Source: Chitinophaga sedimenti (GTDB lineage Bacteria > Bacteroidota > Bacteroidia > Chitinophagales > Chitinophagaceae). From it: a stretch of DNA of 64,000 nt. The stretch is taken from contig NZ_JAKUKA010000001.1 in the NCBI RefSeq assembly GCF_023156195.1, positions 1,116,001-1,180,000 on the forward strand, written 5' to 3'. Position 1 is the first letter of the stretch, and each line of letters begins with the position of its first letter. A model generated the notes under the pieces. That model saw only the letters and a list, made by a program, of their open reading frames with translations, was not told the origin of the DNA and did not search any database. Positions 1,471-55,655 of the stretch are shown here, in pieces. Both the position numbers and the translations under genes were made by a program.

Positions 1471-2570
1471 ATGACCGAAAAAGCCAAGCCTAGAAAATTC
1501 ACCATCCTGCTGGTAGATGACCGTATCGAAAACCTGCTCTCCCTCGAGGAAATGCTGGCCGCGGATAATCGCGTGTTCATTAAAGCCAGTTCCGGTAACG
1601 AAGCCTTGAAACTCGTATTGCGCAATGAAGATATTGGGCTGATCATGCTGGATGTGCAAATGCCCGATATGGACGGATTCGAGGTAGCACGCCTGCTGAA
1701 AGCCAATCCTAAAACCCGCGACATCGCCATCATATTTGTAACCGCTATTAATAAGGACGAGCAGCATGTGCTGAAAGGTTTTGAAGAAGGTGCGGTAGAT
1801 TATTTACCCAAACCGCTGGATATGATGGTCACCCGCGCCAAGGTAAATGTATTCGAGAAGTTGTATTTCTACGACCGCGACCTGAAAAATGCTTTAAGGG
1901 AAAAAGAACTGGTGAACAACCAGCTCGAACGGTTCATGTACGTGGTAGCGCACGACCTGCAATCGCCCCTCTCGGGCGCCATGGGACTCATGATGCTCAT
2001 GCAGGAAGATGAACGCATCAAAGCACATGAAGACCTGCTGGAATATACCAACATGGCCGTGAAAGCCAGCTCCAGCCTGTCAGCTATGATCACCGCCATC
2101 TTTGAGTTTTCCCGTAAAAACGAATTGCAGCAGACCGTGGAAGATGTGGATACCAACGAATTGCTCCAGGAGATCATCGAAATGCTGTTTCCCCGGCGCA
2201 TATCCACATCCGGGTAGAAGGCAAACTGCCAACGATTTTCACCGTGCGCTCCAAACTGCACCAGGTATTCCAGAACCTCATCGGCAACGCCATCAAATAC
2301 AACAATAAAACCCAGGGCGAAATCAAAATAGGCGTAAAAGAAACCGATACGTTCTACGAGTTTTATGTGAAGGACAACGGTCCCGGTATCGAAGAAAAAG
2401 ACAATGAACGCATTTTTAAACTGTTCGAGGTGGTAGACGAAGGCAATGCCGGCAGTACGGGTATTGGCCTCAATATCCTCAAATACCTGGTAGAGTCACA
2501 GGGCGGTAAAGTATGGGTAGCGTCATTCCCCGGCGAAGGCAGCTGTTTCTGGTTCCAATGGCGGAAATAG
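1471..2570 (+). CDS. Response regulator receiver-histidine kinase protein (frameshifted)
   Basis: Cytoplasmic protein with an N-terminal receiver domain (about residues 8-125) joined to a HisKA/HATPase kinase core. Visible receiver landmarks are the acidic pair in LLVDD, the phospho-acceptor Asp in MLDVQMPDMDG and the Lys in YLPKPLD. The kinase H-box is VVAHDLQSPL, the N-box FQNLIGNAIKYNN, followed by DNGPGIE and GSTGIGLNI. No membrane segment is seen, so the input probably comes through the receiver domain. The frame breaks at 2194-2195, where ccccggcg would read in frame if one A or T stood between C and G (a CCWGG site). Repaired length is about 366 residues. This layout is typical of the kinase found behind CheR-CheB in Bacteroidota signalling islands. 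Confidence 0.87.
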
Positions 2571-2715
2571 CGGGATTATCAAAAATTGTCCTTCTATTAT
2601 CATAAATTGCCGCACACATAGCAATTCTGATTAAACCTGTTACATTTGAAGAAGCAAAATCATTTCATCCCCCGGGATGACATAACCAACCTCTTCATGC
2701 ACCAATAAGTAGCTT

Positions 2716-2745
2716 AAAAGCCCCGTCAAATGGGGCTTTTTATTA
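2716..2745 (+). terminator. Rho-independent terminator
   Basis: The stem AAAAGCCCC / GGGGCTTTT around the loop gtcaaat is followed by a T-rich stretch. It lies about 145 bases after the receiver-kinase gene and ends either that operon or a small transcript starting at the TACATTTG element at 2641. Confidence 0.75.
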
Positions 2746-2817
2746 TTCGATGAGCGGCAAAAATGCCACCGAATGTGATCTGGTGGCGATTATATACTTT
2801 GTATTGAGCAATGTAAA

Positions 2818-3695
2818 ATGAAAGTCATACAGTTTACCGTACCAGTCGCCACTGAAGACTCCGTGGTTGTGGAAGAAGACCTGCTTCCCAACTTCTATAA
2901 TTACCTGCACCGGCACAAGGAAATGCAGGTAACGCTCATTGTGAAAGGGAGCGGTACGCTCATTGCCGGCAATTACACCCAGCCGTTCGAGCCGGGCGAT
3001 ATTTACGTAATGGGGGCCAACCAGCCGCATATATTCAAGTCCGATCCCTCGCATTTCGTCAATCCCAAAAAGGGAAATGCGCACGCCATCCACATCTTTT
3101 TCGATCACGAACGCATCCTGAAAAACCTGCTGCACCTGCAGGAAATGGAGCTCATCAAACGCTTCCTGGACCGTACCCAGAGCGGGTTGCAGATGCATAC
3201 GCCGGTCAATGATCCGCACATTGCACAGGTTATTAAAAAAGTGAGCGACAGCTCGGGGTTCGAAAGACTGATGAACTTCCTGCAGCTGCTGCAAAATTTC
3301 TCCCGGGATGTAAAGGATTGGAAATCTTTGTCCACGGGCTTTTCCAAACACTCGCTGCCCGACTCCGAAGGTATCCGCATGAACGATATTTACCAGTATA
3401 CGATGGAACACTACGGTGAAAACATCTCCCTGAAAAGGATCGCCGAAGTCGCCCATATTACGCCGCACGCCTTCTGCAAATACTTTAAAAACACACACGT
3501 AAGACGTATATGGCGTTCCTGAACGAAATCCGCATCAACGAAGCCTGTAAGAAGATCATCAGCGGCGAGTTTTCCAGCATTTCCAGCATTGCGTACAACT
3601 CTGGTTTTAACAGCGCCATCAATTTCAACCGCGTATTCAAAAAAACAACCGGCATTTCCCCCAGCGAGTACATCCGGGAGTATAAAACGAAATAA
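2818..3695 (+). CDS. AraC-family regulator with cupin sensor domain (frameshifted)
   Basis: Transcription regulator of about 292 residues. The N-terminal half is an AraC-binding cupin (histidine-rich YLHRHKEMQV, then FEPGDIYVMGANQPHIF), and the C-terminal third is a double helix-turn-helix of the AraC type (ISLKRIAEVAHITPHAFCKYF, then NEIRINEACK and FNSAINFNRVFKKTTGISPSEY). The frame breaks in the A run near 3492 (ttta5c should be ttta6c), inside the DNA-binding domain, so a single-base error is far more likely than decay. It is clearly related to the regulator at 11185-12066. A terminator follows directly and the next gene is convergent, so it appears monocistronic; its target is not evident from the neighbourhood. 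Confidence 0.88.
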
Positions 3696-3698
3696 AAG

Positions 3699-3732
3699 TG
3701 GGCTGATCAGTTGTATTGGTCAGCCCATTTTT
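3699..3732 (+). terminator. Rho-independent terminator
   Basis: TGGGCTGA pairs with TCAGCCCA across a 13-base loop and is followed by a run of five T. It starts just after the stop of the AraC gene. Confidence 0.75.
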
Positions 3733-3807
3733 ATCAGTTAGCCAGCTTTCGTCCGCTGGTCAGCCCCCGTTGCGACGCTCCCTTCCACCTTGTTACGCTA
3801 CCGGGCC

Positions 3808-3851
3808 GATGGTTCAGTGATGGTTGGGTGATGGTTCAGTGACGGTTCGGT
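3808..3851. repeat. Four tandem 11-base repeats
   Basis: Four head-to-tail units: GATGGTTCAGT, GATGGTTGGGT, GATGGTTCAGT, GACGGTTCGGT. The first and third are identical, the others differ by two bases. The units lie outside any gene, between a terminator and the repeat pair at 3867-3974. Confidence 0.85.
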
Positions 3852-3866
3852 AACGTTGTCACGTCC

Positions 3867-3974: not shown

Positions 3975-5665
3975 AAGCGTCCCGGCAAACCGCCAGCTGG
4001 TCGTATAATCCTTCTTTAACTGCTGCTGCAGCAGAATAGCGCGGAACAACTCAATAGGCATTGTATTCTGCTGTAAGAACGTATCATGAAACTGCTTTTC
4101 CGTGAGCTTGCCCGTACCGACTACCTCCTTATGCAGGGCGCGCAGTTGTAAGCCGCCCATCATGTAGGCGATCTGGTACAGCGGGCCATAACCGCCCGTA
4201 AAGGAGCGGCGTACTTCCGATTCGGCGCTGAAGGGTTCGTGGCCCACGCGCACGGTCAGGAAGTCGATGCACTGCCGGGTGTCCATTTGCCGAGATGGTA
4301 GTTGAGGGAAAAAAATGATGCGTGCGCAGCGGTGCATGCGCCAGAACAGCGCGCCTACCTTTTCCTCGGGAGTGGCGTGGAAGCCTTTGTCCCACAGCAG
4401 CATTTCCCAATAGAGGGCCCAGCCTTCCACCGAAAATGGCGTATCGAAATAACCGCGGTGCGTGTTGTAGCGCGAGTTCATGTAAAACTGCAGGTTGTGT
4501 CCGGGAATCAGCTCGTGGAACACGGTGGCATGCGCAAAACCGTAGTTGTTGCTGCGGAGGCTCATTTCCTTGGTTGCTTCGTTCATTTCTTCCGTGGGAT
4601 AGGCAATCAGGATCGATTCGCCGCCGAGGAAAAACGGCGCAAAACGTTGCTGCTCCGCGGTGAGCATGTTCATGCGCCAGGCCTCTTTGGCCAGGGCGGG
4701 TACTGTTACCAGGCTATTTTTTTCTACGAAGGCTATGGCTTCTTCCGCCAGCCGGTTAATCAGCTCCGGTTGTTTGCCGGGCGCCACATAGTTTTGCTTT
4801 GTTTTCTCCGGGGCCTTTTTCCAATCATCGCCAAAGCCCATTTCCCGGGAGGCTTTGCGCATTTCGGCATCGCACCAGGCAAATTCACGCTCGGCTACCT
4901 TTACCAGTTCTTCCGCGGTGTACGGAATCATCTCGAACTCCAGCAGCTTTTTCAGTTCGGCTGCGCCAATGGGCTGACCAATGATACCGGTACCGTCGTC
5001 CTTGCCACCGGCTTTAGGCATCGCTTTCAGTGTGCCGGCCAGTTCGTCCAGTTGTTTGTCGGTGTCTTTATAAGCCTGTGTTACCCGCCAGGTAAACTGC
5101 GGATCATACCCTTTATAAAAAGAAAAGAAGTTATCGAGGCCGCGATCCAGTTCCCCGGTGATGAGGATGGCTTTGGCCAGCTGCACCGGCTCCAGGGGCT
5201 GCTTTTTCCAGGTTTCGATGGTAGCGGCCACCTGCTTTTGTATGGTTTGCAGTTGTGCGGCGGTAGCAGCGCCATCGAGGTATTTGCCGCGACGGCGTTG
5301 CTGTTGCAATTGCAGGATCGTAGCGGCGAAAGGCATGTCCGGGGCGAGCTTTGCATACACAGCGGCACTTTCGCGCAGGCGGCGGTCCATGTCGGTAATG
5401 TTGCGTGTCAGCAACACATAATCCACCCGGTCGCCGGTGCTCATGCTGTTAAAGTCCAGCTTTTGCAGGGAGGCAGGGTTTCCGCGTTATGCTTTTGCAA
5501 GCGGTCGTAATACTCCGGGCTTTCACGGAAAATATACACCCGATCCAGGCTTTTTACATCCGTATAATATTGGTTGACGAGGTCCGGCATCACGGGCGCC
5601 TGTTGAGCGTAGCCGTTTATCCCCAGCAGCAGCAGGGCGGAGAGCAGCAGTTGTTTCGTTTTCAT
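3972..5665 (-). CDS. DUF885 family protein, putative metallopeptidase (frameshifted)
   Basis: Exported protein of about 564 residues with a signal peptide (KTKQLLLSALLLLGINGYAQ). DUF885 proteins resemble zinc carboxypeptidases; the family hallmark is seen here as FHELIPGHNLQFYM, with downstream YWEMLLWDKG and the C-terminal GYGPLYQIAYMMGGLQL. A peptidase role on exported or imported peptides is likely but the exact substrate of this family is poorly defined. The frame breaks near 5474, where one base is missing from a CCAGG/CCTGG site, separating the first 74 residues from the rest. The stop codon is embedded in the second copy of the 34-base repeat, so the extreme C-terminus may have been altered by that element, although the usual Trp-Arg-Phe-Ala-Gly ending is present. 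The gene stands alone. Confidence 0.85.
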
Positions 5666-5978: not shown

Positions 5979-5987
5979 CTGTTCGTG

Positions 5988-6008: not shown

Positions 6009-6011
6009 TGC

Positions 6012-7447: not shown

Positions 7448-8595
7448 ATGGAACAGGATCAAATAGAACAGCTCATGGTGAAAAGACTGGCGGGCATGAC
7501 GACCGCCGGGGAAAACGCCCGTCTCGACGAGCTGCTAGCCGGTAATCCTGACCTGCAAGCCCAGTGGGACGAGCTCCGGGCCATGCCTGGCGCCCGCGAC
7601 GTGCAGGCCTTCGCTCAAAGCCTGGATGTGGAAAGCGCCTGGGATGAACTGCAAACCATCGTCGCCCCCGCCGCCCGGTCATGCGTCACCTGCGCCGCTT
7701 GTCCATCGCCGCCGCGGTGTTCCTCCTGCTTGGTGGTGCGACGTACTTCCTGGTGAACAGGCAGTCCGATAAAAAGCCCGTAGCCGCAGCCAAACCCGCG
7801 GCCCAGCCTGTACACATCGATGGTATCCGCCTCGAAACCGGTAATGGTGAAGTACTGGCCCTCGACGGCAACAATGCCACCACCTCCGCTACCGTTAACG
7901 GGGTACAGCTTAATAATGATAAAGAAACCCTTCGTTTCGAAGGGACTAATACCACCACCGAAAAGTGGAATACGCTCACCGTACCCGCTAAGCTGGACTA
8001 CAAAGTGGTGCTGGCCGATGGCTCACAGGTATGGCTCAACGCAAATACAAGGCTCCGTTTCCCCTTCGCCTTTCCGGCTAATTCCCGGGAGGTGATCGTA
8101 GATGGGGAAGCATATTTCAAAATTGCCCCGGATGCCGCCCGCCCCTTTATTGTAAACGTAGGGCATTCCCGCCTCGAAGTACTGGGCACCGAGTTTAACG
8201 TAAACAATTACGGCGGTAAAACCATTACCGCCTCCCTGGTAAAAGGCGCCGTAGCGGTAAAAAATGAAACGGACCGTGTGGTGCTCGCCCCGGGCCGCGA
8301 GGCTGTGTATGCCGACGCAGGCAAGGTAAAAGTGAAGGACTTCGAAGAAGAACACGTGATCAGCTGGATCAATGGCATCTACACCTTCCGTAACACGCCG
8401 CTGTCGGTCATGACCGATGTGGTACCACGCATGTTCGACGTGCAGGTAGTGTTCGATGACCCGGAAACGGCGGCCATCCGCTTTACCGGCGCTATGGATA
8501 AACACGACGACCTCTCTGTATTCGTCCGCAACCTGGAACTGGCGGCCGAAATCAAAAGTTATTATAAAAACGGGGTGCTGCACCTCAAGCAATAA
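7448..8595 (+). CDS. FecR-family anti-sigma/sigma regulator (frameshifted)
   Basis: Inner-membrane signal transducer of about 382 residues. The N-terminal cytoplasmic part (MEQDQIEQLMVKRLAG...) would hold an ECF sigma factor. One membrane helix follows near residues 82-100 (SIAAAVFLLLGGATYFLV), then a periplasmic FecR domain with the typical VLADGSQVWLNANTRLRFP, VDGEAYFKIA and EVLGTEFNVN motifs and a C-terminal DUF4974-like segment. The frame breaks at 7676-7677 just before the membrane helix; inserting one A or T makes a CCWGG site and restores the frame. Unlike most FecR genes it is not followed by a SusC gene with an STN domain, but by an S9 peptidase after a hairpin. Confidence 0.88.
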
Positions 8596-12268: not shown

Positions 12269-13203
12269 ATGAGTATTGCCTGGAAGGGTATATATCCCGC
12301 ACTGACTACCAAACTTACCGCCGACGAAGAACTGGATCTCCCTTTGTTCGAAAAGAACCTGAACGCACAGCTCGATGCCGGCATCGATGCAATCGTACTG
12401 GGCGGTACTTTGGGTGAGGCCAGCACGCTGACCACTGCCGAAAAGGAGAAGCTGACAAAGTTTGCAGTAGAACGTACCACGGGTAAAATACCGGTGATCC
12501 TGAACATCGCGGAAGGCTCCACGGCCGAAGCGCTGCTCCGCGCCAAAGAAGCGAAAGCCTGGGGCGCTAAAGGACTGATGATGCTGCCGCCGATGCGTTA
12601 TAAAACCGACGCACGCGAAACCGCTGCGTACTTTAAAACAGTAGCCAACTCCACCGATCTTCCGATCATGATATACAATAACCCCGTTGATTACAAAACG
12701 GAGGTAACCCTTGATGTGTTCGAAGAACTGGCCGAATGCCCGAACATCCGGCGGTAAAAGAATCTACCCGCGATATCAGCAATATCACCCGCATGCGCAA
12801 TGCATTCGGCGATCGTTTTAAACTGCTGTGCGGTGTGGATACACTGGCTATGGAAGAACTGCTCATGGGCGCCGACGGTTGGGTAGGCGGCCTGGTATGT
12901 GCATTCCCGGAAGAAACGGTTGCGGTGTACCGCCTCGTGAAAGCCGGCCGCATCGAAGAAGCGCTGAAAATTTACCGCTGGTTCCTGCCGCTGCTCGAGC
13001 TGGACATCCACGCCAAACTGGTACAGTACATTAAACTGGCAGAAGTGCAGGTAGGACTGGGTAGCGAGTATGTAAGAGCACCGCGCCTCACCCTCGTTGG
13101 AAAAGAGAGAGAGCGAATCCTGAAAGTAATCAACGATGCCCTGGCCATCCGCCCGGCGCTGCCTGATTACAAAGCGATTTCCGCCGAGCTGCAATCGATA
13201 TAA
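12269..13203 (+). CDS. DHDPS/NAL-family lyase, possibly hydroxyproline or arabinonate pathway (frameshifted)
   Basis: A TIM-barrel class I aldolase/dehydratase of about 311 residues. The family GTxGE loop reads LGGTLGEASTLT; the catalytic Tyr is in IMIYNNPVDY near residue 137 and the Schiff-base Lys in AVKESTRDIS near 166. The frame breaks at 12749-12750 between them; an A or T there makes a CCWGG site and gives NIQAVKEST or NILAVKEST. The ATG at 12269 is preferred over the TTG at 12251. Directly downstream is a ketoglutarate-semialdehyde-type dehydrogenase. That pairing occurs in two pathways: 4-hydroxyproline breakdown (pyrroline-4-hydroxy-2-carboxylate deaminase) and non-phosphorylating arabinose breakdown (2-keto-3-deoxyarabinonate dehydratase). 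Lysine-biosynthetic DHDPS is less likely because of the altered loop and this context. Confidence 0.8.
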
Positions 13204-13225: not shown

Positions 13226-14709
13226 ATGCCTGTAACAGAAGCAGTCAATGTAGACGTAGTGATGAACAATGCCGCAAAGGCATTTGATGAATACAAACGC
13301 CTCCCGGCCGCCGCCCGCGCGGCCTTCCCGGAGGCGATAGCCCAGAGCTGGAAGCTGCAAAAGATGCGCTGGTAGCAGCTGCACATGCAGAAACCAATCT
13401 GCCGCTGGCCAGGTTAAATGGCGAGGTAGGCCGTACCACCGGTCAGCTGCGCCTTTTCGCCAACGTGATCAGGGAAGGCAGCTGGGTAAATGCCGTGATA
13501 GATACTGCAGACGCTACCCGCACCCCTGCAAGGCCCGATCTGCGCAAAATGGCGCTGCCACTCGGGCCTGTAGCCGTGTTCAGCGCAAGCAACTTTCCTT
13601 TCGCATTTTCAACCGCCGGCGGCGATACGGCCAGCGCACTGGCTGCGGGTTGTACCGTAGTCGTGAAAGGACACTCCGCACATCAGCAAACGTCCCAACT
13701 CGTATACGAAGCGATTCAGAAAGCCATTAAAAGCAGTGGTGTTCCCGAGTTTACCATGCAGCACATTACCGGCCCAGGCAACCTGGTAGGAAAGGCGCTG
13801 GTGCAACATCCGAACATTACCGCGGTAGGCTTTACCGGCTCATTCAGCGGCGGTACCGCACTGGTGGAGTACTCCAGCCAGCGTGAAGTGCCTGTTCCGG
13901 TGTTTGCCGAAATGAGCAGCATTAACCCGGTAGTATTTTTCCCCGACGCATTGGAGAAAAACGGCGCACAACTGGCGCAAACCTACGCAGGTTCTATCAC
14001 GCTCGGTATGGGACAGTTTTGTACCAACCCCGGTTTGCTGCTGGCAGTGAAATCTCCGGCCCTGGATGCCTTCACCGGCGTACTGGCCGAGGAGATCGCA
14101 AAAGTGGCACCGGCTAAAATGTTGCACACTGGCATCTGCCGCTCTTTCAACGAAAAGCTGGAAGAAGTGCTGGAGCACAAGGATGTGCAGCTGGTAAAAC
14201 AGTCGGCGCAGGCGCCGGCCGAACTCGAGGCGTATCCGACACTCGCAAAAGTAAGCGGCGCCGCTTTCCTGGCGGATGCTGCACTGAAAGAAGAGGTGTT
14301 CGGACCGTTTTCCCTGCTCGTGGAATGTGAAAGTAAAGCAGAACTGATCAAGGTATTAAAAAGTCTGAAAGGCCAGCTTACCACTACCTTGATGGCCACT
14401 GCTGAAGATATTAAAGCCAACCAGGACCTGCTCGACCTGCAAACAACGCTGGCCGGCAGGATTATTCTTAACGGCGCGCCCACCGGCGTGGAAGTGTGTG
14501 CGGCCATGGTGCATGGCGGTCCCTTCCCGTCTACGACCGATCCGCGTTTCACTTCCGTAGGCTCCTCCGCTATCCAGCGTTGGGTACGCCCGGTGTGTTT
14601 CCAGGGTTTCACGGAAGAGATGTTGCCGGCGGAACTGAAAAGCGCCAACCCGCTCAACATCTGGCGCACGGTGAACAACCAGTTCACACAGGCGCCTGTT
14701 AGCGCATAA
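13226..14709 (+). CDS. NADP-type aldehyde dehydrogenase, probable 2,5-dioxovalerate dehydrogenase (frameshifted)
   Basis: About 494 residues of the ketoglutarate-semialdehyde dehydrogenase class. Landmarks are GRTTGQLRLFANVIREGSWV early on, the cofactor region GPVAVFSASNFPFAFS, the catalytic Glu in VFAEMSSINPV, the nucleophile Cys in GMGQFCTNPG and the class-specific end NGAPTGVEVCAAMVHGGPFP. It would oxidise 2-oxoglutarate semialdehyde to 2-oxoglutarate, the last step of both hydroxyproline and arabinose pathways. The frame breaks near 13345, where one G is missing from a CCAGG site; repair joins IAQELEAAKDAL to the rest. It follows the lyase by 22 bases in the same operon. Confidence 0.85.
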
Positions 14710-16308: not shown

Positions 16309-18850
16309 AGAAAGTAATCTTACTCCTAGGCGGAAGTCTTTATCTGACGGGTGTTTTTGCACAACAGGCAGCTACGGTTACCGTCGATGTGTCGAAGCCG
16401 CAGGCCCGCGTGTCCCCTTCGCTGCATGGTATTTTCTTTGAAGAGATCAGCCATGGGGGAGAAGGTGGCCTGTACGCAGAGCTCATACAGAATCGGGGCT
16501 TCGAAGAAAGCCGTATCCCGCAAGGTGTACAGCTGAAAGATGGCTGGCTGGTGCCCGATCCGAAACCACACTGGTTCCTGAACGGTAAACCGAGCGACTG
16601 GCGCATGCCCTGGCCGGTTAAAAGTGATTATCCCAGCTGGCGTGGTAGTGCCGGTATCGATATAACCCTTACGCAGGAGCACCCGCTGAACACCGCGACC
16701 CCGCGTAACATGAAAGTAACCGTCCGGCAACCCGGCGCCGGCAGCCGGTTGATCAATGAAGGTTTCTGGGGCATCAACGCCGTAAAGGGAGATGTGTATA
16801 ATCTTACGTTTTACGCCCGTACGGACGCTGATTACAAAGGCGGCGTAGATGTGCAGCTGCAAAGTAAAGAGGGCCGCATACTGGCTAAAAATACGATCAA
16901 AAGCATTAGTTCCGGTGAATGGAAGAAGTACACGTGCAAACTCATTCCCACGGAAACCGATCCGGCGGCCGAGTTTGCGATCAGCTTCAACACCACCGGT
17001 ACGGCCTACATCGATTTTGTATCGCTGTTTCCCGCCAAAACGTTTAAAGGCCGCCCGAACGGCATGCGCAATGACCTGTCGCTGTTGCTGGCCGGCATGA
17101 AGCCCGCTTTCCTCCGCTGGCCCGGCGGCTGTTTCGTTGAAGGTATTACCATCGAAAGTGCGCCGGACTGGAAAAAGACCATTGGCCCGCAGGAGCAGCG
17201 GGAGCCTACTTACAGTCCCTGGGGTTATTGGGCAAGCAATGGCTTCGGTTACCATGAATACCTGCAATTCTGTGAAGATATCAATGCCGATGCGATGTAC
17301 GTGTTTAACATCGGTATCGCCTGCGAAATGCGCAGCGGTACGTTTTACGGGCAGGACAGCGTGCCTGCGCTCATCGGCAATGTGCTCGACGCCATTGAAT
17401 ATGCGATAGGGCCAGTGTCGTCGAAGTGGGGCCAACTGCGCGCCGCCAACGGTCATCCAAAACCGTTCCCGCTTAAGTACCGGAGATCGGGAATGAACAA
17501 CACGGTGTAGCCTATGCGCAGCGCTATAACGAATTTTATAAGGCCATTAAAGCCAAATACCCGCAGCTGCAAATGATTGCCAGCATGGGCATTGGCGACA
17601 TTAACCGCAATACGCTAGATAGTATGCATGCGGTAGACATCGCGGATGAACATGCGTACAAACCGGCCGGATGGGCCTTTTCGCACTACGATCACTTTGA
17701 TAAATATAAACGGGGCGCCTGGGATGTGTATGTAGGCGAATACGCCACCAACAACGGCGTAGGCGCCGGTAATATGAAAGCGGCGCTGAGCGATGCCGCG
17801 TACATCATGGGCATGGAGCGCAATGGCGACCTGGTGAAGATGTCCAGTTACGCACCATTGTTCGAGAACGTAAACACCCGCCACTGGCCGGTAAACCTCA
17901 TTAACTTCGATGCCTCCCGGAGCTTCGGCCGTATTTCTTATTATCTGATTAAGATGATGAATGATCACCGTGCCGACCAGAACTTCGCAGCAGGCGCCAC
18001 CTTGATAAAGGAAGCAGACCCGCAACCCCGTTTCACCGGCGGTATCGGTCTGGCTACCTGGGATACGCAAACGGATTACAAAGACATACAGGTGATCAAA
18101 AACGGTCAGGTCATCTACCAGAGTGATCTTATCAACAAAAAAGACGAATGGCAACATATAGTGGGCGGATGGGAGGTGTCTGACAGTGTGATCGCTATGA
18201 AACAGGAAGGCCCGCAACGCTTCGCGCTGCTGAAGGGGCAGTCGTTCGATACCTACACGCTCAAACTCAAGGCCCGTCGCAACAGTGGTTACAACGCCTT
18301 CATTATTCCTTTTGCCGTAAAAGATAATAAGACCATGCTGCGCGCGCACATCGGTTCCTGGGTAAACCAGAACTGCGTGTTCGAATCAGTGACCAACGGG
18401 TTCGATGTGGCAGATGTATCTGTCCAGAAGCGTTTGCCTGCGCAGATAGCGACCGGGCGTTGGTACGAGATCACCCTGGAAGTAGGGAAGGAGAAAGTGG
18501 ACTGCTACCTCGATGGGCAACTGCTGATGACCTTTGAACAACCGCAACAATTCCTCGCCATCGCCGGCCGCGACGAAAAGAACGGAGATATTATCGTAAA
18601 AGTAGTGAACGGACAGGCGAATGCGGTGAACACACAATTGCAGCTTACCGGCATAACAAGTGTCGGTAAACAGGCCACGATCACCACGCTGACCGCGCCT
18701 TCCGAAGAACTGGAAAACTCGCTCGACGCGCCGGAGAAATATGTGCCGCGTGAAAGCAAACTGGAAGATATGCGAACGGATTATCCGCTGAAGGTAGCAC
18801 CTTTCAGCATTAACATACTCAGGATCCATGATCCTGCCTGGAAAAAATGA
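16305..18850 (+). CDS. GH51 alpha-L-arabinofuranosidase with CBM-like and C-terminal lectin-like parts (frameshifted)
   Basis: Exported retaining glycosidase of about 848 residues that releases arabinofuranose from arabinans, arabinoxylan or arabinogalactan. A signal peptide ends near residue 20; FFEEISHGGEGGLYAELIQNR opens the GH51 fold, followed by an inserted carbohydrate-binding (CBM4/9-like) segment at about 60-245. The acid/base Glu lies in EIGNEQHG and the nucleophile Glu in VYVGEYATNNG. The C-terminal part holds a concanavalin-like segment (YKDIQVIKNGQVIYQ to GDIIVKVVNGQ) within the beta-sandwich. The frame breaks at 17481-17482, right before the acid/base motif; an inserted T makes CCTGG and gives KYLEIGNE. 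It overlaps the permease gene by four bases, so it belongs to the same operon, and ends at a terminator. Confidence 0.9.
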
Positions 18851-35153: not shown

Positions 35154-35174
35154 GCGATATTTAAACTAATGTAT

Positions 35175-35207
35175 AAAAAAGCGGAGCACGTTAGTGCTCC
35201 GCTTTTT
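35175..35207. terminator. Strong Rho-independent terminator
   Basis: A 14-base stem of the form A-run + GCGGAGCAC / GTGCTCCGC + T-run, with loop gtta, 20 bases after the S9 peptidase stop. Confidence 0.9.
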
Positions 35208-35208
35208 A

Positions 35209-35683
35209 TGTAGTTGTATTACTACATTCCTTGTAGTTGTAGTTAAGTAATTGTGTTGATGTTTGTAGTTTTATTCCTACAGGAGTGCGCTGTTAGGATG
35301 CCTTTCATTCTGTTGTAATCCTTTACAGTGAAGGGTTTTGCAGGGCGTTTTGTTTTCACTTACATACTGTAGATTTTTATCTCTCTTTCTTTTTCTTCAT
35401 ATAGAATTAACAGCTAATCACTACTTTTACCCCAAGAGTATTGTCGGGTCCATAGCAGTAGCATAAATAGAAGCCTAGTAGTAGACATCCATTCCTGTGT
35501 AAAGAAAGGACTATACCATTAAGCATAAGTATAATCATAACCTTAAAGACCGTAACAAACATAAAGCCATTTCCGATGTAGAGAAATTTACGTTCCTCAT
35601 TAGATACCATTAACACCCTTAGATACCTCGCTGTCTGCCTGCCGGACGGCCTTGATTCTTATTGTCCTCTTACAACGACAGAA
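35209..35683. other. AT-rich leader upstream of the giant adhesin
   Basis: About 475 AT-rich bases without a credible gene. Near its start TAGTTGTA-like words recur several times. TTAGATACC is repeated at 35600-35608 and 35620-35628, 20 bases apart, about 60 bases before the adhesin ATG, a spacing that would suit a DNA-binding protein. The rest shows nothing I can name. Confidence 0.45.
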
Positions 35684-46147: not shown

Positions 46148-46176
46148 AATTATCTGCTGATCATAAAAGTGAAAAG

Positions 46177-47178
46177 ATGCAAACAGTAATCAGAGCAGCG
46201 GTAATCACCCTGCTGCTTATCACAGGAGGACGCGCCATGGCGCAACAGAACATACAGTTCAGCCAGTACGTTTTCAACGGCCTGAGCATCAACCCTGCGT
46301 ATGCGGGGTACAAAGAAGACCTTTACCTGAATGCCACGTATCGCCACCAGTGGGCGGGCTTTCCCGGTGCTCCACGTACGGGCGGCATATCGGTAGATGG
46401 TGTGACGCCCGGCAGCGAAGGCAGGGTAGGACTTGGTGGCCAGCTGCTGTTCGATCAGCTGGGACCGCAGCAGGTCCTGTCAGCCTATGGCTCTTATGCC
46501 TACCGCATTCCGCTGGACGCCGAAAATACAAAACGCCTCAGCTTCGGCATCGGTGCAGGTGTTACACAGTATTCCATCGACGGGTCGGCGTTACAGTACA
46601 TCGATAACGAAGATATGGCCATTACACCGGGGAAAACAAGTACCTGGGTGCCCGATGCGCGGTTCGGTGTGTACTATTCGACTTCCAGGTTTTATGCCGG
46701 CGTGTCGGTAATGGACCTGTTCTCACTGTATACCGACGCTTCGCGGTACAACTGGAAGGGGAATAATTACTCGACCATCCGTAAAACGCAGCATATGTAT
46801 CTCACTGCCGGTACCGTGTTCCCGCTGGGTGAAAACCTGCAGCTGAAACCTTCTTTTCTTATCAAGGAAGATTTTAAAGGCCCCAGCAGTGTAGATCTCA
46901 ATGCATTCCTGCTGATCGGAGAGATGTTATGGGTAGGCGGTTCTTATCGCACCAATGTGAACATCTGGCGCAAAACGGAGTTGCAGCGCAACCTGCAGCA
47001 ACAGAACGCCGCCAGCGCCATGGTGGAATTTTATGCGACCAAACAGCTGCGCATCGGTTATTCGTACGACATGAACGTGAATAAAATGGCGGCCTATGAA
47101 GATGGATCGCATGAGCTGTCACTCGGATTTTTAATCCCTTCCAGGAAGTTCACCGTGCAGAACCCGCGGTATTTTTAA
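46177..47178 (+). CDS. PorP/SprF-family outer-membrane protein
   Basis: An intact 333-residue protein counted from the ATG at 46177 (MQTVIRAAVITLLLITGGRAMAQ), which gives a clean signal peptide. The mature start QNIQFSQYVFNGLSINPAYAGYKEDLYLNA is the family signature. These beta-barrels partner with individual type IX cargo proteins, like SprF with the gliding adhesin SprB, and help secrete them or attach them to the cell surface. Its place 30 bases behind the adhesin makes that adhesin the obvious client. Confidence 0.92.
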   Translation: MQTVIRAAVITLLLITGGRAMAQQNIQFSQYVFNGLSINPAYAGYKEDLYLNATYRHQWAGFPGAPRTGGISVDGVTPGSEGRVGLGGQLLFDQLGPQQVLSAYGSYAYRIPLDAENTKRLSFGIGAGVTQYSIDGSALQYIDNEDMAITPGKTSTWVPDARFGVYYSTSRFYAGVSVMDLFSLYTDASRYNWKGNNYSTIRKTQHMYLTAGTVFPLGENLQLKPSFLIKEDFKGPSSVDLNAFLLIGEMLWVGGSYRTNVNIWRKTELQRNLQQQNAASAMVEFYATKQLRIGYSYDMNVNKMAAYEDGSHELSLGFLIPSRKFTVQNPRYF

Positions 47179-47196
47179 CCTTATTACAAACAACGT

Positions 47197-48937
47197 ATGA
47201 TACGACGTAGTTTATCGACAATATTGATGATGGCTATTGCCGGCGGCGGGTATGCACAGGAGCAGAAAAGTGTACACCAGCTGGCCGATGAAGCCTATGC
47301 AAGGGAAGAATATGCAGTAGCTGGCGCATTATACCAGCGACAGGCGCGCAAAGGTGATAAAACACCGTTGAACACGCTGCTGAAAATGGCGCACAGCTTC
47401 CGGGAAACAGGCCGTTACAACGACGCCGCGGCCGTTTATCAGCAATTGATCGCCCGGCCCGGACATCCGGCAGGCGTGTACTTCGAATATGGCGAAACGC
47501 TGCGGCAGCTGGAGCAGTACGATGCCGCGCGGCAGCAATATGTTTTATTCGCCACGGCAAATGCCGACAGCCTCCGGTTAAAAGCGATCGGGCTGCAAAG
47601 TTGCGACAGCGCAGCCGTGTGGATGAAGGCTGGTCCGGCGGTGCAACTTACTCCCATGAAAGCATTGAACACCCCGGGGTCCGACCTGGTCAGCGGCACG
47701 TTAAGTAATGGCCTGTTGTTGATGTCCAACGGTTACAGGACGCTGGTAAACGCGGAGCACCGTCCGGATAAAGACCTGCGTACCCAACACCCTTATTACA
47801 AGGTGTATACGTACCAGCAAAACACGCAGGGCAACCCGGTCATGTACCGGATGAACTGGCCGCGGAGCTGGTGGGCAAATATGACTTTCACGTCGGCCCT
47901 GTTTGCCTGAACAAAGCAGAAGATACTTTATACGCGACCCTCAACATACAGGGTAAAGACATACCTGTAACCAACCGTAAAGGCCCCGTAAATGGCGTTC
48001 GGCAGCTCCAGTGTTCCAGTCGGTTAAAATAGCAGGCAAATGGGGTAAATTGGTATTGCTGCCCGGGATTAATGTGACTGGGTATTCCTCCAGCCACGCG
48101 GTATTAAACAGCGAAGGGAGTGTGCTGTACTTCGTGTCCGATCGTCCCGGCGGCATTGGGGAAACCGACATCTGGTATACGGAAAAACAGGAAGATGGCA
48201 ATTGGGGTGGACCGGTAAATTGTGGCCGTACGATCAATACCGTAGCAGCGGAAACGTTTCCCACGATCAACGAAGATGGTTTGCTGTATTTTTCCAGCAA
48301 AGGCTTTCCCGGTTTAGGAGGATATGATATTTACCGCACGAAAGGAGAAAAGGCGCAATGGGAGATGCCGGAGAATATGAAAGCACCCATCAATTCGGGT
48401 GCCGACGAGCTCGGACTGGTGGTGGCCCGCAATGGTAAACAGGCGTATATGGCTTCCGGCCGGCCAGGTGGCGCGGGTAGCGATGACATTTACGCGTTTA
48501 CCATACAAGCGAAGGTAAATCCAGTAACGCAACCAGCGCCCCAACCCGCCGCAACTTATAACAACGCGGACGAAGCCGCCGACAAACACACCCCGGAATC
48601 GCTCAAGTTGTTCTATGATTATAAAAGCGCCAGCCTGGTGCCGGCATCAAAACAACTGCTCGACGAAGTGGCGGCTATCCTGAAACGCAGACCGGACTGG
48701 AAGCTGACGATTGCCTCCTTCGCGGATAGTCGTGGTGGCTACCAGTACAATATGGACCTGTCTGCGTTGCGTTGCCTGTCCGTTATAGACTACCTCGGCA
48801 GCAAGGGCATCGATCCCCGCCGTTTGTACTACAGCAACAAAGGCGAACTGGAACCGGTGAACAAGTGTGAAGACGGCGTATCCTGCAACGAAGAAGAACA
48901 CGCAGCCAACAGGCGTTCCGAACTGGAAGTAAAATAG
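47197..48937 (+). CDS. TPR-PD40-OmpA family protein (frameshifted)
   Basis: About 580 residues: signal peptide, TPR helices at about 25-130 (AYAREEYAVAGALYQRQARKG, GRYNDAAAVYQQLI), a PD40 propeller (VLYFVSDRPGGIGETDIWY, LLYFSSKGFPGLGGYDIY) and a C-terminal OmpA-like peptidoglycan-binding domain (DYKSASLVPASKQLLDEVA, SFADSRGGYQYNMDLSALR). It would sit in the periplasm, linking the secretion partner to the cell wall. Two breaks fall in CCWGG sites: at 47848-47849 (central base missing) and near 48011 (one G of CCAGG missing). Adhesin, PorP/SprF and this gene form the common type IX cargo operon. A perfect terminator follows. Confidence 0.9.
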
Positions 48938-48954
48938 AAAATTTCTTGATAGTT

Positions 48955-48988
48955 ATAAGCCCGCTCCCAGAGCGGGCTTATCTTGTTT
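48955..48988 (+). terminator. Rho-independent terminator
   Basis: A perfect 11-base stem ATAAGCCCGCT / AGCGGGCTTAT with loop cccag, followed by cttgttt, just after the OmpA-family gene. Confidence 0.85.
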
Positions 48989-49143
48989 GTAACCGATTGC
49001 AGAGCAAATGCGGGTTAGTGGTTTTTATGTGTCAAACAGACAGTTAAGTGCGAAAATAGTTTATCTTACGGCCGGAGAACGCACATTCGGGCAGAGAAAT
49101 CAACCGTGTATAGCCCGCAGAAACGATTGCAATTGGACACACC

Positions 49144-52100
49144 ATGAAAAGAACAGGTTTACTGATCTTCTTACTGACCCTGCATCTTGCACTGAGTGGA
49201 AATGACCGGACACCCATCGTCCGTTATCTCGACATTACCCATGGTCTGTCTAATAATGTAATCACCGCCATCTTCCAGGACCACCATGGTTTTTTATGGT
49301 TTGGTACCTACGACGGACTGAATAAGTACGACGGGTATTCGTTTACGGTGTACCGGAATGTAATAGAAGATACCAACTCCATCGGCGACAGCCGGTATCT
49401 GCGATCAGCGAAGACAGAGAGTATAATATGTGGATCGGCACAAGGGCCGGACTTACGGTATATAATCCTTTACAGGGGCGGTTCTATCACTGCCGTTATA
49501 AACAGCCGGATGGTACGGTGGCGGCTATCGGTGGTGGTGCGCGGGGAATCATTCCGAAGGGCAGGAAGATATTTGTGGGTACCGGCAGGGGGCTGCTGTT
49601 GTTCACCGGTCCCGGCCGGGTGGGCGACGTGGTGAAAGTGAAAGGCGGGGCCTCCACTTATTCGGTCAGCTCTATTGCTTACGATTCCGCCCGCAACGAG
49701 CTGTGGGCGCTGGCCGACGACAACCTGTATAAATATGACGAGCATAGTAATGAACTGGTGTTTGTAGCGGAAGCGGTAAAAAGGCTAACTGCATTGCGCT
49801 GGGTGGTGGCGATATCATCTGGGTGGGTGCCGAAAATGGGCTTTATAGTTTCAGTAAAAGCAATCGTACATTTTCTGCCAACCGGGCTGCCCAGCCTTTG
49901 TGGGTAACTGCCATTGTACATGATGCGGAAAATAATTTGTGGGTAAGTACCGAAGGACTTGGCGTGTGGATGATGCCGCGCGACAGCCAGCAGATCCACC
50001 CGTTCCGCGCAGCGGGCGCTGGTATTAATAGTAACGCGATCGCCACTATTTATGTAGACAAGGAAGACAGGAAGTGGGTAGGTACGCTCCGCGGTGGCAT
50101 CAACATCGTGGAGAACAGCCGCAACCCGTTCCGGAAGATCAGCTTCCTGTAAATGGCCCGGAAGACCTGGCCGCGAATTTCATTCTTTCTTTTAGTGAGG
50201 ACACGAATGAAAACGTGTGGATAGGTACCGATGGCGGCGGTATCTGGTATTGGGACCGGCGCAGTAATCAATACACCCGTTACACGAAAGAAACAAGTGC
50301 ATTGAGCAGCAATTTCGTGACCAATATTACAAAGGATCACGAGGATAATTTGTGGATCGCTACCTGGTTTGGCGGGGTAAACCGGCTGGCAAAGGGCGCC
50401 CGTTCGTTTAGGCAGTACCGTTGTTACAACCCGGCCCTGGCGCGCTATGAAAACAATATCTGGTTTATCCGCGAAGATCGCAACAACGGCTGTGGGCAAG
50501 CGCTACCAACAATGGTTGCCTGTACCTGTACGACCGCGCGGCCGACCAGTTTGAACTCTTTGATGCCGCGCTCACCAACCTGCAGGACATGACCGAAGAT
50601 GCCCAGGGACACCTCTGGGCAGGCAGCTATTCTTCTATTATCCGTATCGATCCTGTTGGTAAAAAACACCAGCAGTTCCCGGTAGGCTACCCGGTACGGA
50701 GCATCCGCGATGCCGGTAATGGCCAGCTCTGGGTAGGTACCGGTGGCGGCGGCTTGTTGTTGTTCGATGTAGCCACAGGTACTTTCAAAAGATTCACTAC
50801 TAATGACGGACTGCTGAATAATACGGTACTGCGCATCCTGGAAGATAAAAAGGGAGAATTGTGGATCAGCACTTTCGCGGGTTTATCACGCTTTAATCCC
50901 TTCACCGGTACCTTTAAGAATTTTACCCAGGCTGATGGCCTGCAGAGCAACCAGTTTAGCTTCAATGCCGCACTGGCGCTGCGGTCCGGTGAGTTTATGT
51001 TCGGCGGACTAAAAGGCTTCAACATTTTTAAGCCGGACGATATTGAGAATGCGCAACGCGAACCCGCTGTGCTGCTGACCGGCTTACGCATCAACAACCA
51101 GCCTGCCCATCGTAATGACAAGTATATCCGCGGGGTCATGGACGGCACTATCCGCTCCATTACCATTCCTGCCAGCGAAGCTAACCTGACCATCGATTTT
51201 ACGGCGATTGCTTTTAATGATGCGGATAAGTTAAGATATGCCGTATACCTGGAAGGCTGGGACAGAAGCTGGAGCACCGGTGCCAGCAGTCGCAACGCGG
51301 TGTATTCCCGCCTCAGCGCCGGCAACTACAAATTGCATGTACGCACTACGAAAAGTGATGGTACCTGGGGCGCAGATACGGTATTGCTTACGGTTCGTGT
51401 GTTGCCGCCATGGTACGCTACCTGGTGGGCGTACTTGTTATATGGCGTGGCATTGTTTGCCGCCGGTTTTGTATACCTGCGTTACAGCAAACGCCAGCAA
51501 CAGATGAAGTTTGAACTGCGGCTGGCCAACCTGGAGAAACTACAGGAGAAGCAGATGACGGAGAATAAGCTGTCGTTTTTTACCCACGTATCCCATGAAT
51601 TCCGGACGCCGCTTACGCTGATCATCAACCCGCTGAAAGACCTGCTGGCTGATGAGGAAGTGCGCCCTGCGCATGCCACGCTGACATTGATACAGCGCAA
51701 CGCGAAACGCCTGCTCAGTCTTGTAGACCAGCTGCTGTTATTCAGAAAGGTGGAGTCGGTAGACCAGCAACTGCGTTGGGAAAAGCTGGATCTTGGAGAA
51801 ATTTGTAACGATGTGTATTTAAGTTTCCTGCAACTCGCCACCTCGAAGAATGTAGCGCTTATTTATACCAGGCCCGAAGAAGCCACCTGTTTTTATGGCG
51901 ACCGGGAGAAAATTGAAATTATATTGTTCAACCTCGTCTCCAACGCGCTCAAATACACGCAGGCAGGAGAGGTGAACATCACGATACACCGGGAGGAAGA
52001 ACGGTTCGAGGTATGGGTGAAAGATACCGGCGCCGGGATTGCCCCGGACGTGGCGGCGCACCTGTTCGAATCTTTTTACCGCGGGGCGGATAAAACACAG

Positions 52101-53152
52101 GCCGGTTTTGGTATCGGGCTGCACGTCTCGCAAAAACTGGCCAAGGCGCATTCCGGGTTGATTTCTTTTGAAACGGAACCGGGGGCAGGCAGCCTGTTTA
52201 AGCTCGCGCTCACAAAAAATACGCATATGTTCGGCGCGGAAATCGCCGTACCGGCGCCACCGGCCGAATCGCGCTTGCTGAATGAGCTGGTCGCCGGCGT
52301 GGGCACAATAATAGGCGACGTGGAGCCGGAACCGCATCATCCCGCCAGGGATATTGAAAAGGTGGTGTCGGGACTGCCGACCATGGTCGTGGTCGACGAT
52401 GATCCCGAACTTCGCTCGTACCTGCACCAGGTTTTTGAGAAAACGTTCACGGTGTATATTGCCAGCGACGGCGAAGCCGGTTACGACCTGATCCGCGAGA
52501 AGTTGCCGGACATCGTGATCAGCGACGTAATGATGGACAAAATGGACGGCATCAGCCTGTGTAAGAAAATCAAAGGTGAAAAACACCTGTCCCATATCCC
52601 CATCATTTTATTAACCGGCAGCGTATCGGAGCAATCGAAAGTGAGCGGTTTCGATGTGGGCGCGGATGATTATATCGGCAAACCCTTTGACCGGAACATA
52701 ATCGTGGCCCGCGTGGAGAACATTCTCCGGGCAAAAAGCCGCATGCAGCAGTACTTCCGGATTCTGTACTGGCCCGGCCAACCATGGGCTTCGACTTTGA
52801 GCATAAGGAGTTTGTAGACAACTGTATTGCCGTGGTCGAACGACATATGGATGATCCCGAATTCGGCATCCGGGCATTTTGCAGGGAGCTGGGCGTAAGT
52901 CACCCTACGTTATACCGGCGCATCAAATCGCTTTCGGGGCTAACCATCGTTGAGTTTATCCGGAGTCTCCGCCTGCGGAAGTCCGCCGAATTATTGATCA
53001 CCACCGGGGCAGCCATCAGTCAGGTGGCGATGCAGACCGGCTTCAACGATATCAAGTACTTCCGGGAGCAGTTCGTCAAGTTGTTCGGGGTAACACCGTC
53101 GAACTTCATTAAAAAGTACCGGCAACCGCTGGGAAACAGGAAGGCAAGGTAG
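49144..53152 (+). CDS. Hybrid two-component regulator (HTCS/SusR type) (multiple frameshifts)
   Basis: One protein of about 1,337 residues spanning the inner membrane, broken by five apparent single-base losses (near 49393, 49786, 50132, 50492 and 52758). A signal peptide is followed by two-component propeller repeats (HGLSNNVITAIFQDHHGFLW, ENVWIGTDGGGIW, GELWISTFAGLSRFN), a Y_Y_Y domain and a membrane helix near residues 760-785. Inside the cell come the kinase (THVSHEFRTPLTLI, NLVSNALKY, DTGAGI), a receiver domain with acceptor Asp in VISDVMMDKMDG and Lys in YIGKPFD, and an AraC-type DNA-binding end (HPTLYRRIKSLSGLTIVEF). Such regulators sense an oligosaccharide in the periplasm and switch on adjacent glycan loci; here GH2 and the second SusC/SusD are the likely targets. 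Confidence 0.92.
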
Positions 53153-53153
53153 A

Positions 53154-53217
53154 ATTTACCCCCTTTTTTTTTTATCATTTACCCCCCTTTTACAGTGCAG
53201 GCCCTTATCTATTTTTA
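53154..53217 (+). promoter_or_regulatory. Probable HTCS operator and promoter of the GH2 gene
   Basis: ATTTACCCCC occurs at 53154-53163 and again at 53177-53187, 23 bases apart, followed 22 bases later by TATTTTTA (53210-53217), a weak match to the -7 element. The same arrangement with ATTTGTCCCC is found before the second susC gene. Two direct sites two helical turns apart suit an AraC-type DNA-binding dimer such as the one at the end of the hybrid regulator. Confidence 0.5.
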
Positions 53218-53243
53218 AGCGTTCCTTAAAAAAAGTAAACGTT

Positions 53244-55655
53244 ATGATAAGAGCAATAGCAGTCGTCGGCACGTGGATGACCCTGTACCTGTTTAGCCCG
53301 CAGGTTGCCAACGCACAGGCGGTTGAGCGGTCGCAGCTGATCTCGGCCGGTTGGAAATTTTTCCTGGGCGAGGCGAATGACGCCGCCAATCCAACATTTA
53401 AAGATGGTAACTGGAAAACAGTAGATCTTCCGCACGACTGGTCAGTGCACCAGCCCTATAATCCCTCCCTCGCGAGCGCGGCCGGTTATCTTCCCGGTGG
53501 CATCGGCTGGTACCGTAAAACGCTGGTGATCGATCCTGCCTATAAGGACAAACAGATAAGCATCTACTTCGAAGGTGTATCCAATAACAGCGAGGTATTT
53601 ATCAATGGTAAAAGCACGGGCAAACGCCCTAACGGTTATATCTCCTTTTCATATGACCTCACGCCTTACCTGAAAGTGGGCGAAACGAACATGCTGGCGG
53701 TGCGGGTAGATCGTACCAAATACAATGATTCCCGCTGGTATGCAGGGTCGGGCATCAGCCGGAATGTGTACCTGCGTGCCACCCATCCCGTGCATTTACA
53801 GCAGTGGGGCACCAACTACTACACCCGCAGCATCGGCAAAGATGGCGCATCCGTGACTATCAGCAGTACCGTGGAAAACAGCAGCGCGCAGGCGGCGAAC
53901 ATTACGCTGCAACAGCGCGTCTGGATAAAAGAACCCTGAAAGTACTGGCCACCGCCACTAAAACGGTAAAACTCGTCGCCGGTGAAAAAGGAGGTGAGTG
54001 TTGCCCTTAAAGTGCCGGGCGCCCGCGCCTGGTCGGTGGCCTCGCCCAACTTATACACCCTGCAAACCACGGTGCAAAAGGGCAAAGCGGTATTGGATAA
54101 AGAACTGACTTCCGTTGGTTTCCGCATCATCCGCTTCGATCCGGATAATGGATTTGCCCTTAATGGCGAATGGATGAAACTGAAAGGCGTTTGTTTGCAC
54201 CACGACGCAGGTGTACTCGGCGCCGCCGTACCCCGGCCGGTATGGGAGCGGAGATTGAAAACGCTGAAAACACTTGGTTGTAACGCCGTAAGGACCAGCC
54301 ACAATCCGGCTAATCCAGACCTGTACGACCTGTGCGACGAACTGGGACTGCTGGTAATGGACGAAGGTTTTGACGAATGGAAGCATCCTAAACGTAAATG
54401 GGTAGAAGGCTGGAACGTGGGAACTCCCGGCTTCGACGGCTATGCGCCGAACTTTGAAGAATGGGGCGAGCGTGACATGGCCGACCTGGTGCTGCGCGAC
54501 AGGCGTCATCCTTCTATTATTATGTGGAGCATCGGTAACGAAGTGGATTATCCCAATGATCCCTACTCACACCCGGTGCTCGATACCGCCACCTTCGGAC
54601 AAAAAGCCTATGGCGGTTATCGTAAGGATGCCCCGGACGCGATGGAACTGGGCGTGATTGCAGAAAAACTGGCCAAAGTGGTGAAAACGCACGATACTAC
54701 CCGTCCCGTTACGGCGGCGCTGGCAGGTGTAATCATGAGTAACTATACCGGTTATCCCGGTGCGCTGGATGTTGCGGGTTACAACTATACGGAGAACCGT
54801 TACGTACAGGACCATAAAACTTATCCTAAGCGCATTATTTACGGCAGCGAAAACCGCCACGACTTTGCCGCCTGGAAGGCAGTGCGTGACAGCAAAAACA
54901 TTTTCGGACAGTTTCTCTGGACCGGTATCGATTACCTGGGTGAGTCCGGGCCATGGCCATCGAGGGGTTTTTATTCCGGGTTGATGGATTTTGGCGGATT
55001 CGTAAAGCCATTGGGTTACTACCGCAGGTCATTGTGGGCGGAGGAGCCGGTGATTTACGTAGGTGCTATTGCCCGCGGCCGGGGAAGCAGGGGGCAAATG
55101 ACCAATGCACCCGCCCTCTGGAACTTTGAAGCCGGCGATACCGTGAGGGTAGTGGCGTATACCAACGCTGCCCAGGCAAAACTGCTGCTGAACGGTAAAG
55201 AGGTGGGCGCCGCCCGTGCCCACGACGATGCTACCGGCGTAATATTCTGGGACGTTGCCTACCAGCCGGGTAAACTGGAAGCCGTGGCCCTGAATAATGG
55301 CGCTGCGGTGGCCAATATGACGATCCAGACGTCGGGCCGCCCGTTCCGGTTGCTGGCAACCAACGCAGGCAGCGGCGACGTGGCCCAGGTAGTTGTAACC
55401 GTAGTGGATGAAGAAAACCGCCCCGTAGTACTGGCGGATAATAATATTACCTGCACCATCGAGGGGCAGGCCAAACTCCCGGGACTGGAAGGTGGTGACA
55501 ATACCGACATGGGCGATTATACCGATAATAAACAACGCGCATACATGGGCAGACTGTTGGCCTATCTCCAACCTGCGCAAAAGGCAGGAGCGGTTAAAGT
55601 GACATTTTCTAGCCCGTATTTGCAACCGGTAACGCTGACGTTACCGGCCCGCTAA
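53244..55655 (+). CDS. GH2 family glycosidase, probable beta-galactosidase (frameshifted)
   Basis: Exported glycosidase of about 803 residues with a signal peptide ending near residue 27. The N-terminal jelly-roll carries LPHDWSVHQPY and GGIGWYRKTL; the TIM barrel has LKGVCLHHDAGVLGAA and NAVRTSHNPANPDLYDLCDE. The acid/base Glu is in MWSIGNEVDYP near residue 432 and the nucleophile Glu in IIYGSENRHD near 535. A C-terminal DUF4982-like/Ig part ends in LPGLEGGDNTDMGDYTDN. GH2 includes galactosidases, glucuronidases and others; the activity cannot be fixed from sequence by eye. Breaks lie near 53920 (one C missing from CCTGG) and in the A run near 53982 (one extra or two missing). The gene follows the hybrid regulator on the same strand. 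Confidence 0.87.

Follow-up and report, generated by a model that had tools for sequence, protein, structure and literature searches.

CCWGG as an indel hot spot in a Chitinophaga sedimenti genome assembly and its probable origin in cytosine methylation

Broken reading frames in the window

The window analyzed here is a stretch of 64,000 nucleotides of the Chitinophaga sedimenti genome (G000:C1:1116001-1180000, G000 being this genome), in which genes ranging from a response-regulator/HisKA gene to a glycoside hydrolase family 2 gene have broken reading frames. The assembly comprises 6.42 Mb in 3 contigs at 80.5% completeness, and such a value in a nearly single-contig assembly suggests unpolished long reads. 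An earlier note, made from the letters of the window, had assigned 14 or 15 of about 35 breaks to CCWGG (W, A or T), either as CCGG that had lost the W or as remnants that had lost a C or G, and had proposed that the organism carries a CCWGG-specific cytosine methyltransferase. Alignment to relatives strongly supports the conclusion that indels of this assembly concentrate at CCWGG, that the effect is W-specific and that, homopolymers apart, no other motif comes close in strength.

Twenty-three window breaks passed the filter described below, 20 losses and 3 gains. A long homopolymer lies in 12 of the 23, and two of these 12 also hold CCGG. Losses coincided with CCGG in 8 of 20 cases against 1.97 expected by chance (P 2.6e-4), and with CCWGG remnants missing a C or G in 4 of 20 against 3.07 (P 0.37). 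The W-loss class of the earlier note is far beyond chance. Its C/G-loss class lacks support in the window, and in the larger sample it is weak. The alignment finds a break at 11 of the 15 places that the note had listed: seven W-loss places (2194, 7676, 12749, 17481, 47848, 49393 and 52758) and four C/G-loss places (13345, 48011 and 53920, together with 5474, which is seen with one relative and lies outside the flank-filtered set). The break that the note had put at 50132 maps to 50141-50151, away from that CCGG, and the PorP/SprF gene that follows 46083 aligns to five relatives without a break, which speaks for the following gene only. The count leaves 36972 and 38170 unjudged, where no alignment met the cut-offs; open reading frames (ORFs) of relatives longer than 2200 residues were excluded. 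On this evidence the share of breaks given in the note was too high; the motif itself was right.

CCWGG is an indel hot spot across 604 kb

We aligned 604 kb of the genome (G000:C1:1096001-1700000) to G073:C1:1680001-2260000 and to pieces of another relative, G022, by a purpose-written frameshift-aware codon alignment, which covered 115,933 codons against G073. This main relative belongs to the same genus and is a single contig; it shares 77-80% DNA identity with C. sedimenti in best matches and 77.2% across 336,321 aligned bases, and its synteny extends over much of the studied region. Breaks were kept if each of their two flanks had 18 or more aligned codons and 60% or more identity. Before counting, this flank filter removed 146 break calls, and 27 double calls were joined with their counterparts, which left 202 breaks for both relatives combined (165 losses and 37 gains). 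Each break was represented by its 90% interval, chance expectations were obtained by sliding intervals of equal width and codon phase along the same gene, and k-mer enrichment was scanned without choosing a motif beforehand. The approach is blind to substitution errors. The hot spot is absent from a relative treated the same way: when G022 was aligned to G073 identically, the flank filter removed 10 calls and 0 breaks were kept in 14,476 codons. This run supersedes a first-pass analysis of 384 kb. Synteny with G011 and G012 around a SusC gene was dropped, as strong matches were found for few window gene families only.

Homopolymers form the largest error class, with 78 of the 202 kept breaks (62 of 165 losses and 16 of 37 gains); among the 165 losses, A/T runs of five were found at 39 versus 3.9 expected and four C or G at 24 versus 4.8. 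CCGG coincided with 45 of the 165 losses against 10.9 expected (11.0 in the k-mer scan; P 4e-17). The concentration claimed in the earlier note recurred outside the window, in sequence that its author never saw, where 37 of 145 losses fell at CCGG against 8.9 expected (P 3e-14). With homopolymers set aside, CCGG was the top 4-mer of the genome's own sequence (40 of 103 losses versus 5.8, P 2e-24), and among the 16 palindromic 4-mers it alone was enriched, GTAC coming next at P 0.09. The control motifs GGWCC, GGCC, CGCG, GCGC and GATC showed no significant excess at losses. CCSGG (S, C or G) was found in the same sequence at 10 of 103 losses versus 1.8, a count that includes the CCGG core. CCGG losses were spread over 12 of 13 bins of 50 kb, the last bin having just 2 breaks. 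At a pad of 2 the CCGG excess amounted to 50/216 versus 15.3 expected under a looser filter and 34/125 versus 7.7 under a stricter one; a pad of 0, at which short intervals are often too small for a 4-mer, shrank it to 14/165 versus 6.1 (P 0.003).

Other forms of error at the motif were less pronounced. Remnants of CCWGG that had lost a C or G were found at 22/103 losses versus 12.7 (P 0.006) without homopolymers and at 28/165 versus 22.7 (P 0.13) over all losses, one form, CCAGA/TCTGG, being clearly enriched (10/103 versus 0.9). CCWGG was present at 9 of 37 gains against 1.2 expected (P 2e-6), mostly with an extra G behind it, and at 2 of the 21 gains without homopolymers against 0.7 (P 0.14). 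The 53 breaks outside homopolymers and CCWGG forms favored A-rich words: AAAG (22 versus 4.2), AAAA (19 versus 4.1) and AGAA (11 versus 2.8). The CCGG-type losses also preferred certain flanks, CCGGA/TCCGG lying at 28 of the 103 non-homopolymer losses versus 1.7, a preference that may stem from the base caller.

Loss of the W from CCWGG

In the relative's DNA at the 103 non-homopolymer losses, the top 5-mer was CCAGG/CCTGG, found 29 times versus 5.7 expected (5.2 in another count). Of the 40 CCGG-type losses, 16 have CCWGG in the relative and 2 have CCGG, one place having both; 1 has CCSGG and 23 have none of these. The conserved shares of the two words between C. sedimenti and G073 are 0.41 for CCWGG and 0.44 for CCGG. 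Given these shares, 16 CCWGG against 2 CCGG indicate that it is the W of CCWGG that has been lost. The stretches aligned to G073 hold 1,289 intact CCWGG sites; measured against these, the approximately 34 excess CCGG losses correspond to a W lost at roughly 2 to 3% of sites.

C5-methyltransferase genes of the genome

The earlier note had suggested looking for a Dcm-like C5 methyltransferase elsewhere in the genome. C5-methyltransferase loci are present; no Dcm-like recognition region was recognized in the phage-type enzyme or in an intact homologue of the other. A Pfam C5-methyltransferase search of the genome gave six matches at two loci, one directly after a Vsr gene and one of phage type (Table 1). 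The Vsr gene is intact (L017:8629-9048; TIGR00632, 140.8 bits, cut-off 97.85), its product matches the solved Vsr-type endonuclease 1cw0 (E 4e-34), and the methyltransferase starts at 9045. The Vsr-linked island has a guanine-plus-cytosine (GC) content of 36-42%, versus 51-53% in the stretches on either side. The methyltransferase is followed by ORFs for a GHKL ATPase and another HATPase protein, and by a response-regulator match that falls short of its cut-off (28.7 bits versus 30.2). As a whole, L017:8629-13486 (G000:C1:523629-528486) is a candidate defense island with the Vsr gene, the C5-methyltransferase pieces, GHKL ATPases, a response-regulator-like ORF and an unknown 263-residue ORF.

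The Vsr-linked enzyme is split into three pieces, of which the N piece carries catalytic motifs I and IV, the middle piece motif VIII and the C piece motif X. The ENV motif is in none of the three and is present in the intact homologue L128, from a record of Chitinophaga pinensis isolate 3; the recognition region was judged on L128, that of the C. sedimenti enzyme being interrupted. Among 78 other Chitinophaga-genus genomes searched, 12 have uninterrupted homologues (64-84% identity in the N-terminal part) and 3 further ones have distant homologues (38-39% identity). Copies about 50% identical to this family were found on 41 Campylobacter plasmid records. The phage-type enzyme shows about 34% identity to the best-scoring phage records (best 8 of 1089). 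Its gene (L018:8627-9847; G000:C1:5683627-5684847) lies in a stretch of 40-48% GC and is overlapped by a second long ORF on the same strand.

The Vsr-linked arrangement resembles that of Escherichia coli (dcm b1961, vsr b1960), where a C5-methyltransferase gene likewise adjoins a Vsr gene. L128 aligns with E. coli Dcm in the common catalytic parts only (27% identity over 244 residues, and a 60-residue C-terminal piece), and its recognition region is different. L128 matches the PADLOC profile PDLC02649, a DISARM DrmMII model, over its full length (E 2.8e-169), and PDLC02649 is also the best match for each of the three C. sedimenti pieces. There are several DrmMII models, and E. coli Dcm matches a different one, PDLC02653. 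PMC5957327, citing Ofir et al., reports that DISARM of Bacillus paralicheniformis methylates CCWGG, and PMC9142583 gives a different motif for the C5 enzyme of Serratia DISARM. The Bacillus enzyme may belong to PDLC02649 or to another of the DrmMII models. Unlike class 2 DISARM, the locus gave no drmA, drmB or drmC match in the three downstream ORFs scanned with PADLOC or the four scanned with Pfam; a weak REase_II match (E 2.6e-6) was obtained among the three. In its combination of C5-methyltransferase, Vsr, GHKL ATPase and response-regulator-like gene, the island resembles the restriction-modification loci with paraMORC ATPases described by Bellieny-Rabelo et al. 2021 (PMC8011034); its Pfam matches are the generic HATPase and Response_reg rather than PF19191/PF19192, and CCWGG occurs 0 times in the main text of that paper. 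No specificity was found for the Vsr-linked family in the literature examined on Fusobacterium and Campylobacter, including PMC8565308. Our literature search returned no report linking Chitinophaga with CCWGG; PMC10333322 reports CCWGG methylation for Bacteroides thetaiotaomicron.

A second error-rich genome

A further genome of the genus, G082 (one contig, 65% complete), is also error-rich. It carries a Vsr-like gene, a Dcm-like methyltransferase gene and an EcoRII-C endonuclease gene side by side (Table 1), and its Dcm-like enzyme shows 46% identity with E. coli Dcm across 364 residues. Anchoring on SusC failed (best match 30% identity among 202), and a LepA-like anchor worked. A 50% identity filter rejected 33 break calls, and 124 breaks were kept (112 losses and 12 gains). 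The strongest words were C/G runs, CCCC/GGGG being found at 39 of 112 losses versus 7.0. CCWGG and CCGG were in excess both over all losses (CCWGG 15 versus 5.8, P 5e-4; CCGG 17 versus 10.5, P 0.03) and over the 67 non-homopolymer losses, where intact CCWGG reached 13 versus 3.5 (P 1.6e-5), CCGG 13 versus 5.9 (P 0.0035) and CCWGG in the relative 11 versus 3.9 (P 0.0014), with remnants at 8 versus 10.9. The CCWGG excess is weaker than in C. sedimenti and takes a different form, as breaks beside intact CCWGG are as common as W loss; the differing form means that G082 gives the methylation reading support, not proof.

Table 1. Frame breaks (window positions) and methyltransferase loci (G000 and G082 positions)
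Feature	Position	Strand	Gene or neighborhood	Context and agreement
Loss	2191..2198	+	response-regulator/HisKA gene	CCGG beside C run; two relatives agree
Loss	4275..4276	-	DUF885 gene	CCGG; absent from the earlier note
Loss	7670..7692	+	FecR gene	wide interval containing CCGG (7676 in the earlier note)
Loss	12746..12753	+	DHDPS-family gene	CCGG; two relatives
Loss	13343..13347	+	aldehyde dehydrogenase gene	CCWGG remnant (class weak overall); two relatives
Loss	17481..17485	+	alpha-L-arabinofuranosidase gene	CCGG; two relatives
Loss	47845..47852	+	TPR/OmpA-family gene	CCGG; five relatives
Loss	48009..48019	+	same TPR/OmpA-family gene	CCWGG-remnant place of the earlier note; five relatives
Loss	49393..49397	+	hybrid two-component sensor gene	CCGG; relative G022
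Loss	50141..50151	+		put at 50132 in the earlier note; not at that CCGG
Loss	52758..52759	+	hybrid two-component sensor gene	CCGG; relative's reading frame 1342 residues
Loss	53919..53923	+	glycoside hydrolase family 2 gene	CCWGG remnant
Loss	63471..63481	+		homopolymer and CCGG both present; absent from the earlier note
Vsr-linked C5-methyltransferase	G000:C1:524045-525254		directly after Vsr gene	Pfam match
Phage-type C5-methyltransferase	G000:C1:5683885-5684766 (matches)		406 residues	Pfam match
Vsr-like gene (by alignment), Dcm-like methyltransferase and EcoRII-C endonuclease	G082 L127:634-3692		side by side

Origin of the hot spot

The best explanation for the broken reading frames is sequencing error in an assembly that was left uncorrected and, by its error profile, probably came from nanopore reads. 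Two kinds of site fail, single-base runs and CCWGG. Seen through the frame breaks, the consensus error at CCWGG is usually loss of the middle A or T, with a few gains in CCWGG followed by further G. 5-Methylcytosine in CCWGG would shift the pore signal from what the base-calling model expects, and, judged from the frame breaks, such methylation is the best explanation of the hot spot and probably the correct one. The methyl group would most likely be added by one of the genome's two C5-methyltransferases, the Vsr-linked enzyme being more likely than the phage-type enzyme. According to Wick et al. 2019 (PMC6591954), Dcm motifs made up about 70% of consensus errors with the then-default Oxford Nanopore Technologies models in a Klebsiella genome. 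As in those Dcm-type errors, the errors seen here cluster at CCAGG/CCTGG and homopolymers; unlike that Klebsiella genome with Dcm, ours is of Bacteroidota, its two candidate enzymes, one of them judged on L128, lack a Dcm-like recognition region, and its profile is drawn from frame breaks alone.

Several observations weigh against this interpretation. A Dcm-like recognition region was found neither in L128, aligned with E. coli Dcm and the G082 enzyme, nor in the phage-type enzyme. The Vsr-linked gene is broken at three places in 1.25 kb, none of them at CCGG or CCWGG, and it could be a real pseudogene; at the sample rate, at least three breaks have a chance of about 0.04. The methyltransferase proposed in the earlier note is supported in part, by the hot spot and by two C5 loci, one of them beside vsr, and not by a recognition region that would give CCWGG specificity or by an intact copy of the better candidate gene. 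Two weaker, unexplained words accompany CCWGG, namely CCTCC/GGAGG, found in the relative at 8 of 103 losses versus 1.3, and CGAGGA/TCCTCG, at 4 losses versus 0.3 and 3 gains versus 0.1, so that a second motif is possible. The CCGG:CCWGG ratio, offered in the earlier note as a check, was computed with a single relative over the aligned sequence and fails to separate the readings: the totals in C. sedimenti relative to G073, 1.147 for CCGG and 0.913 for CCWGG, lie within the spread of other motifs (0.836-1.189) and therefore give no independent substitution signal. The maximal-order Markov ratio of CCAGG (0.94 in C. sedimenti, 1.01 in G073 and 0.96 in G082) shows no clear avoidance.

An identical scar could also come from a base-calling model trained on Dcm-methylated DNA, such as that of E. 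coli and Klebsiella, that fails on unmethylated CCWGG, in which case the hot spot would mirror the training set. In the work of Wick et al. 2019 (PMC6591954), the consensus quality of a custom Klebsiella model was on average 1.64 q units lower outside Enterobacteriaceae, and the two candidates here, one of them judged on L128, lack a Dcm-like recognition region. Yet C. sedimenti carries C5-methyltransferase genes, and G082, which has a Dcm-like enzyme and an EcoRII-type endonuclease, shows a CCWGG excess too, the opposite of what this explanation predicts if the pipelines were alike. We consider it unlikely, although the most serious of the alternatives. That CCWGG is hard to call regardless of its methylation state seems improbable: the data of a single genome cannot separate context from modification, but no palindrome of similar composition is in significant excess, and almost no Dcm errors were left after training on methylated DNA in the account of Wick et al. 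(PMC6591954). In a family-wide search made with a view to an error-rich control, 165 genomes gave no C5-methyltransferase match.

A different modification of CCWGG, either N4-methylcytosine (MvaI type) or N6-methyladenine on the single A, is comparably improbable. Any base modification can disturb base calling. Against it, PF01555 and PF02384 gave 0 matches in the genome, other adenine-methylase families not having been searched, while the same searches match in 11 and 13 of 14 control genomes. Real mutations that left pseudogenes are hardly credible as the source of the breaks, given the number of kept breaks (202, in a sample whose alignment to G073 spans 115,933 codons), the incomplete gene set of the assembly, the concentration at homopolymers and CCWGG, and the lack of any kept break between G022 and G073. 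Break calls made before filtering also fall in genes resembling gyrA and lepA.

Methylation of CCWGG remains our preferred reading, and a motif fingerprint can be read from the frame breaks of a public assembly that was left unpolished. Annotators should not label genes broken here as pseudogenes. The fingerprint also makes CCWGG a testable candidate specificity of an uncharacterized, mobile family of Vsr-linked methyltransferases. As a tentative extension, about which we are more doubtful than confident, this DrmMII-profile family may methylate CCWGG through a recognition region unrelated to that of Dcm, and consensus errors of public assemblies may serve to assign such specificities without signal data.

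Other features of the window

In the kept breaks at window positions 50479-50480 and 62425-62435, long homopolymers and CCWGG forms are both absent. Window positions 35000-49100 are without a G073 or G022 DNA match at E <= 1e-120 and represent a variable or inserted region, which encodes a 1949-residue ORF with a weak sodium/calcium-exchanger match below cut-off, a Calx-beta/DUF11 ORF and PorP/SprF.

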